From: Bifidobacterium erythrocebi
Lineage (GTDB): Bacteria; Actinomycetota; Actinomycetes; Actinomycetales; Bifidobacteriaceae
Length of the DNA: 64,000 nt
NCBI RefSeq assembly: GCF_012932675.1
Contig: NZ_JAAIIF010000006.1
Span: 186,001 to 250,000 of the forward strand
Direction: 5' to 3'
The number at the start of each line of letters is the position of its first letter. Within the stretch, counting starts at the first letter, position 1. A program made the translations under genes and the position numbers. The notes beneath the pieces are model-generated. The model had not been told where the DNA came from. It was given only the letters and a program-made list of their open reading frames with translations, and ran no database searches. Positions 5,413 through 56,542 of this stretch are shown piece after piece.

Positions 5413-5523
5413 ATGGAAAACGATAAAATGTTCGTTTTTGTTCATTTGGTATTATTGCCATGATATGTTGAAAATATTGACGTTATGACCTGTTGCATGC
5501 CGTGTCGTATGTTCGGAATGATG

Positions 5524-5529
5524 TATACT
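5524..5529 (+). promoter_or_regulatory. Candidate -10 box (TATACT) of the structured RNA
   Basis: TATACT would place a start near 5536, just before the first helix of the structured RNA. No convincing -35 hexamer is present 16-18 bp upstream; TTGACG at 5477-5482 is too far away. The call therefore rests on the -10 alone. Confidence 0.35.
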
Positions 5530-5535
5530 GTAACC

Positions 5536-5800
5536 GAAGGCCGGAGTTGCAGACTGGTCGAGAATTCGTCAGATCGCAACGAAGCGCCATGGCCGTGAGG
5601 TACAAGCGCAACGCCTTCGAAATAATTGAAGATAGCAGGCATGCAAGCGGCGAGAAGTCAGCAAAGAGGCTGGGCCGCTGAAACGAGGTGATTGGTTCCG
5701 AAGCGCAGCGCAAGGTGGCGCGGACGCTCGGAAGCGAAACGATGAGATGGATAGCAGGAGGGTGGCTCCGGCAGCGGAATTGCCGGAGCCACCCTTTGTT
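5536..5800 (+). ncRNA. Candidate structured non-coding RNA, about 265 nt
   Basis: This stretch has no credible coding frame but folds into a chain of strong hairpins. GTTGC (5546-5550) pairs with GCAAC (5576-5580), with an inner CTG/CAG and CGA/TCG. GCCT (5613-5616) pairs with AGGC (5637-5640). AGCGGC (5646-5651) pairs with GCCGCT (5674-5679) around an inner CAGC/GCTG. TTCCG (5696-5700), AGCG and GCGC pair with GCGC, CGCT and CGGAA (5718-5733). The RNA would end in a 14-bp terminator hairpin. GATAGCAGG occurs twice (5631, 5750), and GAAACGA follows both of the last two hairpins. I do not see RNase P, SRP or tmRNA signature sequences. The class is unidentified; functional RNA is an inference from structure plus terminator. 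Confidence 0.6.
5760..5800 (+). terminator. Strong terminator of the structured RNA
   Basis: A 14-bp perfect GC-rich inverted repeat (5760-5773 with 5781-5794, seven-base loop) is followed by TTTGTT. Confidence 0.85.
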
Positions 5801-6018
5801 ATGTGCCGTTATGTGCCGCATGATTTTCATTGCAGATTCGTGATTGGCCTTGCTGGAGACCGCCGATGCGGCGGTTGATTCGCAACACCGATGTTGCCTT
5901 CGGGCGAGCCGGTTATGGGCGTGGTGATGGCGGTTCGCTCTTATTCGGTTTCATGGTTTCACATCTCTTGTACGGCAACAACGTGTTCTGTGTCTGGAGG
6001 TAGCTGTGATTCGTGCCA

Positions 6019-6487
6019 AGCCGCGCCAATCAGTCTCCTGCGTGGCGATTTCTGAATAGGTTCCACATTTGGCTGTGCTGAGATGTCGCCAGCGTAGCCG
6101 TTTCCGTATGGAGGCCAGGTCCGACCATGGGAGCAGGTCCCAGGTGCAGCCGTTGTGTAATGGTACCCGGGTTTTGCCACGCTGAGGGATGGTATATGAT
6201 GCCTAATCCGGCTGTGTTCCGTAGTTTGCCATGCTGAGGTGCAATACGTGATATCAAGCGCGGCTGGGATCCGTGTCTTGCTTCGCAGGATGCCCATTAG
6301 CGAGGCATGCCCGGAATAGGATCCGTGTCCTGCTGCGCTGAGCAGCCTTCTGTATGGCAGTTGTGGGCTACGCCCCATGTTTTGCCACGTTGGACTACCG
6401 TCAGTGGGTCTGTTTCCGGATGGGTTGCGGATTTGGCTTTGCGTGAGTGGAATCCGTATGGCTTGGTCCGGTAGTTTTCGCAATCCT
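6019..6487 (+). repeat. Degenerate tandem repeat array A, period about 52 bp
   Basis: A core resembling GGCCACGCTGAG recurs at about 6019, 6071, 6123 (weak), 6176, 6228, 6280, 6332, 6384 and 6436, giving steps of 52-53 bp. About 10 bp before several cores stands a second conserved block close to ATCCGTGT (for example 6270 and 6320). Units are only partly identical to each other. No open frame is shared by the units, and 52 is not a multiple of three, so the array is not a coding repeat. The flanks (5801-6018 and 6488-6777) hold nothing else I can identify. The same repeat returns at 7869-8284 and 56181-56542. Confidence 0.75.
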
Positions 6488-6777: not shown

Positions 6778-7782
6778 ATGCGAAGCGTGCTGGGTTATGT
6801 TCATTCCATGAGAAAACACACACGAATACGCGAACTGATATCGGATGCCACGGCGCAGCGGCGGTGCGTGCACTCGTCGGTGAGGTCGGAGGCGGCGGCG
6901 CTGCAACGAAGAGCCCAGGAAGGAGAGGAATTGATCCGCGTGGCTCCGGGGTATTATGCGCCGCGCGAATACTGGCAGGATCTTCGGCCTCCGGATCGTA
7001 CATTGCACTTGGCCCGGGCCGTGGGAATGAATCATCCGCAATGGGTGTTCACCGGTGCGGCTGCTGCGGCGGCATATGGCCTTGAACATCAGTGGACGGT
7101 GCATGACGGGACGCTTGCCATAACGGATGCCAAGCAGAATGATTTTTGCCGGGGAAGTGGGATCCGCAGACTGTACATACCGGTGGGCTATATGCAACCG
7201 GTCGAAGTGGTACATGGGATACGTGTTCCCGGCGTGGTGCAGACCGTACTGGATTGTGCGAGGCTGTTTGAGTTCTGCAACGCGATCCCGGTCGCGGATT
7301 CCGCATTGGCGCGGGGTGTGAAATACGACGAGCTGCTAAGTGGATGCATAGGGCTGAACGGTGAGCTACCCAAGGTGATGCGTGTGCTGAACCATGCCGA
7401 TGGGGCAAGCGAGAATGGCGGGGAATCGCTGGCTCGGGCGACGATTATCGAAGGCGGTTATGACAGACCGTTGCTGCAGATGCCGTTCGTCGATCCTGAA
7501 TCCGGCCGATGTTATAGGGCGGATTTCGTATGGGTGCTTCCGGACGGTTCGATTGTCATCGGCGAATTCGACGGCACCGGTAAGTATGTCGATCCTCTGA
7601 TGACCGATCGTAAAAGCATTCAGGCGACGGTCCACCTGGAGCGTGAACGTGAGACCGCTCTTCGTCGGGCTGGAGCACGAATGATCGTGCGCTTCACCTA
7701 TGACGATGTCGTGCGCCGTACGCCGTTGTGGCGCAAACTTGCGCAGGCCGGCGTACCTCGGTCCGATAGTGTGCGTGGCTGA
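6778..7782 (+). CDS. AbiEi-like winged-helix / DUF559-type nuclease-like protein
   Basis: A 334-residue protein. The N-terminal half resembles AbiEi-type antitoxin and transcriptional regulator domains: a helical start, then GEELIRVAPGYYAPREYW, a hallmark of the winged-helix wing, and later TVLDCARLFEF. The C-terminal third resembles DUF559/Vsr-type PD-(D/E)xK folds, with GESLARATIIEGG, YRADFVWVLPDGSIVIGEFDGTGKY (Asp, then Glu-x-Asp and Lys) and ERETALRRAGARMIVRFTYDD. No toxin partner lies next to it. The start is uncertain: 6778 has no clear ribosome site, and 6808 (MRKHTRIREL) is an alternative. It stands alone between two 52-bp repeat arrays. Function is unproven; a regulator or nuclease of a defence or mobile locus is possible. 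Confidence 0.6.
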   Translation: MRSVLGYVHSMRKHTRIRELISDATAQRRCVHSSVRSEAAALQRRAQEGEELIRVAPGYYAPREYWQDLRPPDRTLHLARAVGMNHPQWVFTGAAAAAAYGLEHQWTVHDGTLAITDAKQNDFCRGSGIRRLYIPVGYMQPVEVVHGIRVPGVVQTVLDCARLFEFCNAIPVADSALARGVKYDELLSGCIGLNGELPKVMRVLNHADGASENGGESLARATIIEGGYDRPLLQMPFVDPESGRCYRADFVWVLPDGSIVIGEFDGTGKYVDPLMTDRKSIQATVHLERERETALRRAGARMIVRFTYDDVVRRTPLWRKLAQAGVPRSDSVRG

Positions 7783-8603
7783 GATGACCGTTGGTGCCGA
7801 AGGCGGCGCTGAGTCTGTCGCCGAGTGCGCCATGTCGGTGTGGCAATATTTGGGTGCTATGCGAATGTCGTCATGCTGGTTATCTGCTGGCGGGGCTGTT
7901 TTCGGAAGGAGATTCTGCTCGGCTGCAGTGGGCGGTTGCTGCCGAAACCGCCGTGCGGCGACATCCGGTTCTCGCTACGCTGCCGGGTGGCGCGCGATGC
8001 CAAAACCGGTCGCCATCCGTGTCTGGTCACGTCGAGGAATCTCCAGCGTGGCGATATCCGGGTGGCGCGCGGATTATGCGATGCTGGTTGATTCCCTGCG
8101 TAGCTGGTTCCGGACGATGGTTAGGTTCGGCTGCGGTAGGGGAGTCCCGGAGGAACCGTTACGGGATAGCGTCCGGCTTTCGCGCCATTGAGCGAACATC
8201 AGTGGGGCGAAAACCGGATGCCATGCGGCTGCGGCCACGTTAAAGTGCTCGCCGACGGAGCCTGCCTGCAAGATGCAGATGAATTCGGTCGCGATCGGCG
8301 ATGCGATAGAGAGTGGTGCGTTGTCGGCCGCGACACGTCGGGGGAGGATTTGTCCGACGTTGCCGTATAGTTGTAATTCGTGTGTGCCAACAGCATGCCT
8401 TATGTAACAGGCGGGCTGGTTGGGATATCCCGAGAATCGTTTGGATCGCGGGCAGTAATGCCGCGGCGAGAGAGGATTGGGTCATCGGGCCGGTGAACAG
8501 TGGCTATCTTTCCGATTCGGGCGCTTGCCCGTGCAGTGGGAGAGTGTGGCTGCAGTGCGGCGGCCTCACAGGTAAGAAGAACCACTGAATCGGAGAATTC
8601 AAG
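7783..8603. other. Long intergenic region upstream of the str operon
   Basis: These 820 bp hold repeat array B (7869-8284) and presumably the str operon promoter. Several small frames exist, but none has a ribosome site or a recognisable product. A TATAGT hexamer lies near 8366 without a convincing -35 partner, so I do not assign a promoter. Confidence 0.6.
7869..8284 (+). repeat. Degenerate tandem repeat array B, period 52 bp
   Basis: Cores related to GGCCACGCTGAG start at 7869, 7921, 7973, 8025, 8077, 8129, 8181 and 8233, eight steps of 52 bp. Units 7973 and 8181 also share an AAACCGG block in their second half, and unit 7973 ends in CCATCCGTGTCT, matching array A. Individual units are strongly diverged. 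The array is non-coding and lies about 320 bp before rpsL. Confidence 0.75.
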
Positions 8604-45015: not shown

Positions 45016-46158
45016 ATGGCCGAAGACAACGCAAATCCGATGCCGCCGATGGAGAACAATCCCAACGGCAATCAGCCGAACGATTACGGCAATGCCGCTG
45101 CCGATGGCGGCACCCAGCCCGGCGGGTACGTTTCCGTGGACGGCAACACCCAGCCTATGGGGTATGCGCCGGTGGAAGGCAACGCCCAATTCAACGGGTA
45201 TGCGCCGGCGGATGGCACCCAGCCCGGCGGATATGCCCCGATGAACGGCTATGCGACCCAGCTTCCCCATGGCGGCGCTTCGGCAAACGGCGGTTATGCG
45301 GGCGGTCAGCCGTACGCGCCTACGCAGCCGATGCAACCCGTGCAACCTGTGCAGTCCTCGCAGAATAGCCCGTTCGCCAATCAGCAGCTTCCCGTGAATG
45401 GTAGGCCGCCAAAAGACAAGCCGCAGGCCGATACCTCGAAGATCATGCAGTACGCCACCCTTGCCATCAGCATCGTCGCGCTGATACTGGGCATCGCGGC
45501 GAACGTGCATGTTGTCAAGCCATACCGTCTTGCCAGCGTATCCGCTCCCACATCCGTGGGCGATAGCGCGAAGAGCAAGAAGGATTCGGATTCCAAGGCA
45601 AAGGATTCCGAAACAAAGGACTCCACAGCAAAGTCCGAATCCGAATCGACCGGCGATGATTCGTCGGCCGGAACCTCCGGTAAGGACCTCTTGGGCAAGT
45701 ACGCGGGCACCGTCGATGGCAAGAAGATGTACGAGCTCAATCTGCCGGGGGCGAGGGGCGGCAATTCCCAGAGCGGCGATTCGAAAAGCAGCGGTTCGAG
45801 AGGCAAGGGCTACACCGTGTCCGCCGATTCCAACCTTGACGGCGACTATGAGCTCGGCGACTACAACCTGCACCTGGAGATAACGAACTTCGAAGCGACC
45901 GGCACCTCCGCGACGCTCACCACCGAAGTGACCAACAACGGCACCTCCGGTCAGACCGCGAACTTTGTCGCCACGCTGTCGCAGAACGGCAAGGCGGTTG
46001 ATCTGGAAGGCATCGATACCGCGGGCAAGACCATCGAACCTGGCCATAAGGCGATCATCACCACGAAGTTCAGGCTTAACGACCCGTCCCAGCCGGTTAC
46101 CATCGAGATTCCACTGGCCGGCGAGAAGATGCGCATCACCTTCACCCCGCAGTCGTGA
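45016..46158 (+). CDS. Membrane protein with Gly/Pro/Tyr-rich repeat region and DUF5067-like domain
   Basis: A 380-residue protein. Residues 20-105 carry imperfect repeats around GGYAP, GTQPGGY and NGYAP, typical of disordered Gly/Pro/Tyr-rich cytoplasmic regions. One membrane helix lies at about 145-163. A Ser/Lys/Asp-rich linker (about 178-222) leads to an Ig-like domain (DYNLHLEITNFEATGTSATLTTEVTNNG, GKTIEPGHKAIITTKFRL) of the DUF5067 type. The overall plan matches the protein at 22525-23925. GAGGGAGAAG supports ATG 45016. Function is unknown; a surface-exposed role is inferred. Confidence 0.7.
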   Translation: MAEDNANPMPPMENNPNGNQPNDYGNAAADGGTQPGGYVSVDGNTQPMGYAPVEGNAQFNGYAPADGTQPGGYAPMNGYATQLPHGGASANGGYAGGQPYAPTQPMQPVQPVQSSQNSPFANQQLPVNGRPPKDKPQADTSKIMQYATLAISIVALILGIAANVHVVKPYRLASVSAPTSVGDSAKSKKDSDSKAKDSETKDSTAKSESESTGDDSSAGTSGKDLLGKYAGTVDGKKMYELNLPGARGGNSQSGDSKSSGSRGKGYTVSADSNLDGDYELGDYNLHLEITNFEATGTSATLTTEVTNNGTSGQTANFVATLSQNGKAVDLEGIDTAGKTIEPGHKAIITTKFRLNDPSQPVTIEIPLAGEKMRITFTPQS

Positions 46159-54495: not shown

Positions 54496-55425
54496 ATGAA
54501 CGACGTCATTGCCAGCAGCCACGAGGATCAGCTTCGTGCGGAACGCTCCAATTTCGGCCTGCGTCTGCACAACTCCATGAGCAAGTACGGTCCGCTGTGC
54601 GTTGGCATTGACCCGCATCGCAGACTCCTGACGGACTGGGGCTACAACGTTGACGCGAACGGCGCGGAGATGTTCTCGATGCGCATGCTGCAGGCCGCGA
54701 ACGGCCGCGCCGCCGCCGTCAAATTCCAGATGCCCATGTTCGAACGGTACGGTTCCAAAGGCTTTGCCGTATTGGAACGGCTGCTCTACGCGGCGCGGCA
54801 GATGGGTGTGATCACCATCGTGGATTGCGTGCATGGAGGTCTTTCCACCACCATCTCCGCCATCGCCGACGCGTATTTCAAGCCTGGTGCGCCGATGAAG
54901 GCCGATGCGATCACGCTGCTGCCGTATTACGGTGAGCGTTCGCTACGTGGCCTGATCGACGACGCCCTCGACAACGGCGGCGGTGTGTTCATCGCCTCGC
55001 TCACCTCGAACGAGGAAGGGCGCAGCGTGCAGAGCGCCATTCGCCAAAGCGGCTCCTACAAGGGGCAGACCGTGGCCTATGGCATCGCCGCCGCCGCGCA
55101 GAAGCACAACGCCGAGCATGAGGGCATGGGCTCTGTCGGCCTGATCGTGGGCGCGACGGTGGGGCAGTGGATCGAACAGACCGGCGTCAATCCAGCGCAT
55201 TTCACCGGTCCGATTCTTTCCCCGGGCTATGGCTGGCAGGGTGCCGAGGCTGAGGATCTGAAAACCCTGTTCAAGGGCACGCATGGCAACGTACTGGTCA
55301 CCGTGTCCCGTTCCATCGCCACCAAGGGACCGGCCATCGCCGATCTTGCGGCGGCCACCGAATCCATCGCCCTGGATGTGCGCCAGGCCATGATGGAAGC
55401 CGAAGACGAAACCATGGAGGTATGA
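54496..55425 (+). CDS. pyrF: Orotidine 5'-phosphate decarboxylase (type 2 family)
   Basis: A 309-residue decarboxylase producing UMP. It belongs to the longer actinobacterial type, with LCVGIDPHRRLLTDWG, the catalytic Lys region AVKFQMPMFERYGSKGFAVLERLL, VDCVHGGLSTTISAIADAYF and the phosphate loop ILSPGYGWQGAEAEDLKTLF. Its location directly after carB makes an operon for UMP synthesis. It overlaps gmk by four bases (ATGA). Confidence 0.93.
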   Translation: MNDVIASSHEDQLRAERSNFGLRLHNSMSKYGPLCVGIDPHRRLLTDWGYNVDANGAEMFSMRMLQAANGRAAAVKFQMPMFERYGSKGFAVLERLLYAARQMGVITIVDCVHGGLSTTISAIADAYFKPGAPMKADAITLLPYYGERSLRGLIDDALDNGGGVFIASLTSNEEGRSVQSAIRQSGSYKGQTVAYGIAAAAQKHNAEHEGMGSVGLIVGATVGQWIEQTGVNPAHFTGPILSPGYGWQGAEAEDLKTLFKGTHGNVLVTVSRSIATKGPAIADLAAATESIALDVRQAMMEAEDETMEV

Positions 55426-56015
55426 GCAGAGTGACGAACGGACGTCTTATCGTGCTGAGCGGTCCGACTGCGGTCGGCAAGGGCACGGTGGAGCAGAAGC
55501 TGCTTGCCGATCACCCCGAGATCTGGGTGTCGGTATCCGCCACCACCCGCGACCCGCGACCCGGCGAACAGGACGGCGTGAACTACTGGTTCATGACCGA
55601 GGACGAGTTCGTGGCGGGGGAGCGCGAAGGCAAGTTCCTGGAGACCGCCGTGGTACACGGCATGGCCCATTACGGCACGCCGTTGGAACCGGTGAAGGAG
55701 CATCTGAGCAGGAACGTTCCCACGCTGTTGGAGATCGATCTGCAGGGTGCGCGGCGTGTACGCGAACGTGCCGCCGAGCTCGGGCTTGAGGTGGTGAGCG
55801 TGTTCATCGCGCCGCCGTCGTTCGAGGAGCTCAAGCGTAGGCTGGTCGGGCGTGGTACCGAAACCGCCGATCAGCAGGCCAAGCGGTTGGAGACCGCGAA
55901 GGTGGAGCTTGCGGCCGAGAACGAGTTCGATGTGGTCATCGTCAACGACACCGTGGATAAGGCCGCGGATGATCTGTGGAAGGTGATCGCCGAGGAGTAC
56001 GGCCTGCAGAAGTAG
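55422..56015 (+). CDS. gmk: Guanylate kinase
   Basis: A 197-residue kinase converting GMP to GDP. The P-loop is LSGPTAVGKGTVEQKL; GMP-binding residues lie in SVSATTRDPRPGEQDGVNYWFMTEDEF and the lid in VFIAPPSFEELKRRLVGRGTE. ATG 55422 overlaps the pyrF stop, so expression is coupled to pyrimidine synthesis. Confidence 0.97.
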   Translation: MSRVTNGRLIVLSGPTAVGKGTVEQKLLADHPEIWVSVSATTRDPRPGEQDGVNYWFMTEDEFVAGEREGKFLETAVVHGMAHYGTPLEPVKEHLSRNVPTLLEIDLQGARRVRERAAELGLEVVSVFIAPPSFEELKRRLVGRGTETADQQAKRLETAKVELAAENEFDVVIVNDTVDKAADDLWKVIAEEYGLQK

Positions 56016-56092: not shown

Positions 56093-56180
56093 GGCGGCCT
56101 GCGGCATGCGTGGCTGTGTGTGGCTGCATATGCAATATGCGGGGTGCGGGCGTGACGATTGCCGGATGACGGCCGTATGT

Positions 56181-56542
56181 GGCTGTGCTGGCGATGCTGT
56201 GTGTGGCGGTGTGCGTGATGTATCCGCATATAGCCATGCTGGTAGGCATTGTGCGTGGCCAAAACCGGATGAGAGACGCGTCTGGCTGCGCTAGGGGCCA
56301 ATAGTGGGGCGATAGACGGATGATATCTGCAAGCGGCTACGCTGAAGGATGCCGTGTGTGGTGATTCGTGGATGATACCTGTGTACGGCCACGCTGAGAA
56401 GCGATGAGCGTAGCCGTAATCGGATGAGTTGCAGGTTTGGCTGCGCTGAGGGCGAGTATGTGCGGCTGTAGCTGAATGCCATCCGTATCCGGCCACGCTG
56501 GCTGGTGGGGGGACTGCGGGTGAGGGATGTCCGAATGTTTAC
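56181..56542 (+). repeat. Degenerate tandem repeat array C, period 51-52 bp
   Basis: Cores related to GGCCACGCTGAG start at 56181, 56232, 56284, 56335, 56387, 56439 and 56491. Several units also have a GGATGA block (for example 56369, 56422) and an ATCCGTAT block (56480) before the next core. These match arrays A and B in sequence, spacing and orientation. The rest of the gmk to thiamine-gene gap (56093-56180 and 56543-56684) holds only a G+C-rich hairpin. Confidence 0.75.

Follow-up and report, generated by a model that had tools for sequence, protein, structure and literature searches.

The closest described relatives of the system analysed here are the AbiEi proteins and their operators, known from abiE of S. 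agalactiae and Rv2827c of M. tuberculosis (type IV toxin-antitoxin). AbiEi monomers bind two 23-bp inverted repeats that lie 3 bp apart; the binding is positively cooperative and bends the DNA, and the promoter of Rv2827c contains four repeats with wider gaps (PMC7319586). Another arrangement is that of REP/BIME elements with RAYT transposases (REPtrons), in which the gene is flanked by its own palindromic repeats, the repeats are dispersed between genes, several unrelated sets occur in one genome, and repeat and protein co-vary. A homing endonuclease gene lies inside its own target, and relatives carry gene-free alleles. Plasmid partition centromeres, such as sopC of F, and chromosomal parS are made of dyad sites in tandem and in helical phase, to which a DNA-binding protein attaches.

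We studied a window of 64,000 nucleotides from the gut bacterium Bifidobacterium erythrocebi (contig NZ_JAAIIF010000006.1, positions 186,001 to 250,000), in which the following features are relevant.

5523-5799: conserved intergenic element with a strong terminator-like hairpin at its end (5759-5795).
5994-6461, plus strand: array A, nine 52-bp units, or 18 sites of 26 bp in alternating orientation, on the upstream side of the AbiEi-nuclease gene, with a faint continuation to about 6503; from lag-52 autocorrelation, a lag map and a unit weight matrix.
6808-7782, plus strand: AbiEi-nuclease gene (324 aa) between arrays A and C, encoding a candidate array-binding protein; from homologs beside arrays, alignment and the match of the model and fold.
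7844-8259, plus strand: array C, eight units of 52 bp between the AbiEi-nuclease gene and the rpsL promoter region; from the lag-52 map, an identity of 0.59 at lag 208 and the weight matrix.
56156-56517, plus strand: array B, seven units of 51-52 bp, intergenic, after 55422-56015 and facing the convergent gene of a thiamine-binding protein; from the lag map and the weight matrix.

With AbiEi systems this locus shares the predicted protein fold and a row of alternating inverted repeats upstream of the gene (23-bp repeats with a 3-bp gap, i.e., 26 bp, in the AbiEi operator). It differs in an extra C-terminal nuclease-like domain, in the lack of a visible AbiEii partner beside the gene, and in having about 16 sites per array, with arrays dispersed over the chromosome, instead of two or four sites. 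It resembles REPtrons in all the respects named above but has an exact 52-bp tandem register and an AbiEi plus Vsr-like protein in place of the transposase. Identity with REP/RAYT was rejected, as the Y1 transposase (PF01797) is absent from seven genomes and present in control genomes. As in homing endonuclease genes, a nuclease-like gene lies inside a presumed target and gene-free alleles occur in relatives; here, however, the target is a dispersed tandem array rather than one conserved site, and cleavage and gene conversion are hypothetical. The phased tandem dyads and a lean towards the origin suggest an analogy with sopC and parS, from which the system differs by its many dispersed arrays, its protein fold and the absence of an adjacent partition gene in the 64-kb window. 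We propose that the arrays are extended AbiEi-type operators, that is, rows of putative binding sites for AbiEi-nuclease proteins, and give this reading a probability of about 0.72.

The first-pass annotation had described a non-coding repeat with a 52-bp period at 6019-6487 and had called for autocorrelation at lags 50-54 against shuffled controls. In this stretch the identity at lag 52 is 0.504 against a background of about 26% (z = 11.8, dinucleotide shuffles), with harmonics at lags 104 and 156 (z about 7.6 each); the 95% limit of the shuffles for the best of all lags is 3.4. Lags 50, 51, 53 and 54 stay at the background level. Tandem Repeats Finder did not detect array A even at score 30, just as had been anticipated for ordinary repeat finders. 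A 36-bp tandem repeat (2.3 copies) was reported by this program at 45136-45217 of the window; its period is a multiple of three, so it is possibly coding.

The 12-base core quoted in the annotation holds only in part: it is strong at about 6071, 6175, 6227 and 6331 (9-11 of 12 bases) and degenerate at the other five quoted places (5-8 of 12 bases), though the 52-base register is exact. The structured RNA proposed near array A is real as an element, namely 5523-5799, but is separate from the array and incidental to it. Many species of Bifidobacterium keep the core of this element between a permease gene and rpsL, with no array seen there, and the element is probably a non-coding RNA gene unrelated to array A; an Rfam search gave no match for it and no known RNA at array A itself. 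A repeated peptide is ruled out, as originally stated, by a period that is not a multiple of three and additionally by spacings of 51 and 53 and the absence of a coding signal from the arrays.

The spacing is conserved in relatives. Of 270 spacings between successive units in four other species, 234 are exactly 52 and most others 51 or 53; the identity between units is about 50%, yet indels are few. An exact register combined with drifting sequence in several species suggests selection on spacing, in line with the initial idea. Analysis of the 52-bp unit gave just one reflection symmetry in each of the five species studied (r 0.84, 0.81, 0.45, 0.82 and 0.65; next best at most 0.28). One reflection per period means that 26-bp sites follow each other in alternating orientation; thus the true repeat unit is a 26-bp site, and 52 bp are two opposed sites. 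The helix makes about 2.5 turns from one site to the next and five turns between sites of like orientation. The site in the window's genome is approximately CATCCG.AT.TGGCCACGCTGA. Among 14 array types, 11 have a reflection symmetry above the 95% null (best symmetry of each). The length of the site equals the AbiEi operator spacing (23 + 3 = 26 bp), an agreement that was not used in building the alignment, and the inverted repeats lie upstream of the gene, as in an AbiEi operator.

The start of the 6808-7782 gene was chosen by comparison of homologs. Its product has no Pfam match of its own, and its predicted model has a pLDDT of 93. In the model, residues 2-198 match AbiEi of S. agalactiae (6y8q; Z 9.9, rmsd 6.5, 180 aligned residues); among the 43 members of the family, 27 are hit by AbiEi profiles (best E 3.7e-16; 0.0037 for the window protein). 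By model and profiles the protein qualifies as a member of the AbiEi family, which is recognized by a winged helix-turn-helix together with the AbiEi C-terminal domain. Residues 199-317 match Vsr/DUF559-like nucleases (1vsr, Z 6.1; 3hrl, Z 7.2), values that are modest and alone no proof. Nucleases of this kind are marked by a PD-(D/E)XK fold and conserved acidic residues; in the alignment of 43 homologs D239, E253, D255, G256 and K259 are invariant and E206 is nearly so. Pfam gave no nuclease match for this domain, and a search of the sequences of solved structures with the family profile found none. Type IV toxin-antitoxin systems of the AbiE kind have AbiEii in the same operon; here no AbiEii (DUF1814) lies beside the gene. 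Downstream of it come array C and rpsL, no other gene being called before rpsL, and in this the locus departs from that class. The family is matched in 136 of the 198 Actinomycetes genomes sampled, and as far as we found in open-licence papers no role has been assigned to it.

The genes of this family are associated with arrays. In six other array-bearing genomes (G045, G074, G015, G067, G021 and G031) the closest homologs directly adjoin relatives of the window's arrays, and paralogs have periodic arrays of their own, unrelated in sequence, with periods mostly of 52, 53, 61 or 62. When 900-bp flanks were compared with shuffles and z > 6 was counted as an array, arrays were found upstream of 21 and downstream of 12 of the 46 Bifidobacterium family genes; of 176 control slices one had such an array. 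The more identical two proteins are, the more alike their arrays tend to be (Mantel r 0.65; none of 2000 permutations as high), and the array period goes with the protein tree as well (11 changes, where shuffles average 20.4; none of 200 as low). Shared descent of an adjacent gene and array explains part of this correlation, but it does not explain why far-off dispersed arrays share the type of the gene-adjacent array. Eighteen of the 43 members of the family, most of them from separate clades, have no detected array. Two members from clades without a detected 45-67-bp array, G000:C20:83428-84378 and G000:C10:68913-69866, may carry arrays of some other period (signals at lags of 118 and about 102 occur) or none. 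Outside Bifidobacterium the family is broad, yet none of 29 homologs (58 flanks) has an array; therefore, in this sample at least, the array habit looks like an elaboration of Bifidobacterium.

The window's own 2.29-Mb genome contains about 15 arrays with approximately 100 units, as counted by a sequence-only model of double units; the 52-bp arrays have one consensus at about 15 places. BLAST of an array against its own genome gives weak matches only because the units are too diverged. The arrays lie between genes of many kinds, for which reason regulation of particular neighbours was rejected. An origin from phages or plasmids was also rejected, with one partial phage match and two weak plasmid matches only. 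Among 112 Bifidobacterium genomes, the first array model has matches at E <= 1e-6 in 6 (including the genome of the window). A second model, derived from other species, picks up 26 of the 112 at E <= 1e-5; many genomes match neither. A second array type (type 2), unrelated in sequence, is dispersed too and matches the array beside a paralog, and one genome can carry several unrelated types. In open-licence papers we found neither a 52-bp intergenic repeat of Bifidobacterium nor an AbiEi-nuclease with arrays.

Both types are mostly origin-proximal and largely co-oriented with replication. In complete genomes starting at dnaA, arrays are on the plus strand in the right arm and on the minus strand in the left one in 12 of 12 cases in G015 and 9 of 9 in G074, and type-2 arrays tend to do likewise, though not without exceptions (about 11 of 16 in G020, about 19 of 21 in G060); these hand counts are not independent, as many array places are orthologous. 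In G015 all arrays are confined to roughly the origin-proximal half of each arm, and those of G006 extend further out. One array of the window's genome is on the plus strand while both of its neighbouring genes are on the minus strand; hence transcription of the neighbours does not set the orientation. Since the arrays are more skewed than the leading strand at 4-fold sites, mutation bias is probably not the whole cause either, with 4-fold sites, rather than neutral non-coding DNA, as the basis of this comparison.

At two loci there are alleles without the gene. At the rpsL locus genome G006 lacks the gene; a short array lies there between flanks shared with the window, which are about 376 bp apart in G006 and about 2530 bp in the window. 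At a type-2 locus G020 has an array-gene-array arrangement (about 1.46 kb), and between the same flanks G040 has two array units in direct succession. From these alleles the gene looks like an insertion within an array, as would be the case for a homing gene interrupting its own site, the cleavage site being presumed. Gene loss by recombination between the flanking arrays would leave identical alleles. By profile search of complete genomes the family gene is absent from G060, G040, G019 and G001, though type-2 arrays are present there, numerous and regularly spaced at 53 bp; in G060, G040 and G019 the spacing is as regular as in gene-bearing G020. Either the gene was lost recently or the arrays have a role without it.

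This persistence of regular arrays without the gene, together with their origin-proximal placing and orientation with replication, is what would be expected if the arrays were elements of the host chromosome (for nucleoid organisation, segregation or replication) bound by some other conserved protein, and the AbiEi-nuclease genes were parasites homing in and using them as landing sites or promoters. We regard this main rival as unlikely. A conserved host protein is not expected to read so many sequences, but array sequences differ between paralogs in step with the protein tree, a single genome can hold several unrelated types, and many Bifidobacterium genomes match neither of the two models; moreover, the 26-bp geometry is that of AbiEi. 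Neutral satellite-like tandem duplications, decaying and functionless, would account for units that are much diverged and variable in number and for neighbouring genes of many kinds. They would hardly keep 234 of 270 spacings at exactly 52 with few indels at about 50% identity, nor a consistent orientation, one consensus at about 15 places and a tie to one gene family, and we consider this explanation very improbable.

The idea that the arrays act through dyad hairpins, as RNA or as DNA cruciforms, draws on near-perfect dyads in several species, on an excess of G.T over A.C mismatches on the plus strand, and on the RNA of array A folding slightly better than shuffles (z = -2.05). It is largely refuted by the dyads themselves and is, in our estimate, very improbable. 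Within the dyads there is no positive covariation in any well-sampled species and a D1 deficit in three; Watson-Crick pairs do not exceed the expectation of independence in G000, G045 and G067, and the small excess in G015 is non-significant. As pairing is not above the expectation from column frequencies, each half is kept, or decays, independently, and this fits protein sites better than hairpins or cruciforms. In addition, hairpins have no need of a fixed 52-bp spacing, one array is opposed to both neighbouring genes, and leading-strand base skew would also give the G.T excess. The annotation's suggestion of an array of protein sites gains from the exact spacing with drifting sequence, from dyads without pairing covariation and from a gene for a DNA-binding type of protein beside the arrays; the sites themselves are putative.

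If the arrays are indeed extended AbiEi-type operators, each would offer about 10-40 putative sites of 26 bp to an AbiEi-type protein, their alternating orientation making the pattern repeat every 52 bp, or five helical turns. Monomers may sit side by side along the array and interact, as published for AbiEi on a two-site operator; such interaction would explain why the spacing is kept while the bases drift. The cognate protein would be the 324-aa product of 6808-7782, with its AbiEi-like part and Vsr/DUF559-type nuclease domain, and the array upstream of the gene would probably serve its autoregulation. The sites would then have spread to about 15 intergenic places. An insertion-like gene and gene-free alleles in relatives suggest to us a life cycle like that of REPtrons or homing genes, with the nuclease perhaps promoting the copying of gene and array into related sites; beyond autoregulation we favour such nuclease-driven spread, but only tentatively. 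We see about even odds that this is an undescribed class of bacterial genetic system, in which an AbiEi protein fused to a nuclease is paired with a species-specific array of sites 26-30 bp long in alternating orientation. The arrays would be spread over the origin-proximal chromosome and oriented with replication, and each genome would hold several orthogonal pairs of protein and array, co-evolving and moving in the manner of a selfish, or of a chromosome-organising, element. A family with no published role that we could find is now tied to a concrete candidate DNA target of published geometry. If the arrays are bound, many chromosomes of Bifidobacterium, bacteria of wide human use, would have platforms, a dozen or more each, on which several proteins stand in phase, most of them towards the origin; this would matter for how chromosomes are organised, how selfish genes spread and how DNA-binding specificity evolves.

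Other repeats were seen in the genus. Intergenic arrays with a 61-bp period and strong dyads occur in several Bifidobacterium species (L221:3841-4145, L228:3501-3744, L209:2441-2684, L091:301-545 and L120:14422-14604), and those adjoining family genes belong mostly to one protein clade. Behind gene ends there are copies of a palindromic repeat, GGCTCCCC..GAGGGGAGC(T)GTCAGC..GCTGACTGAGGGGAGC, in B. miconisargentati (L113:8044-8244) and a repeat with a 95-bp period and dyads CAGTCCAA..TTGGACTG in B. tibiigranuli (L136:2745-3000).
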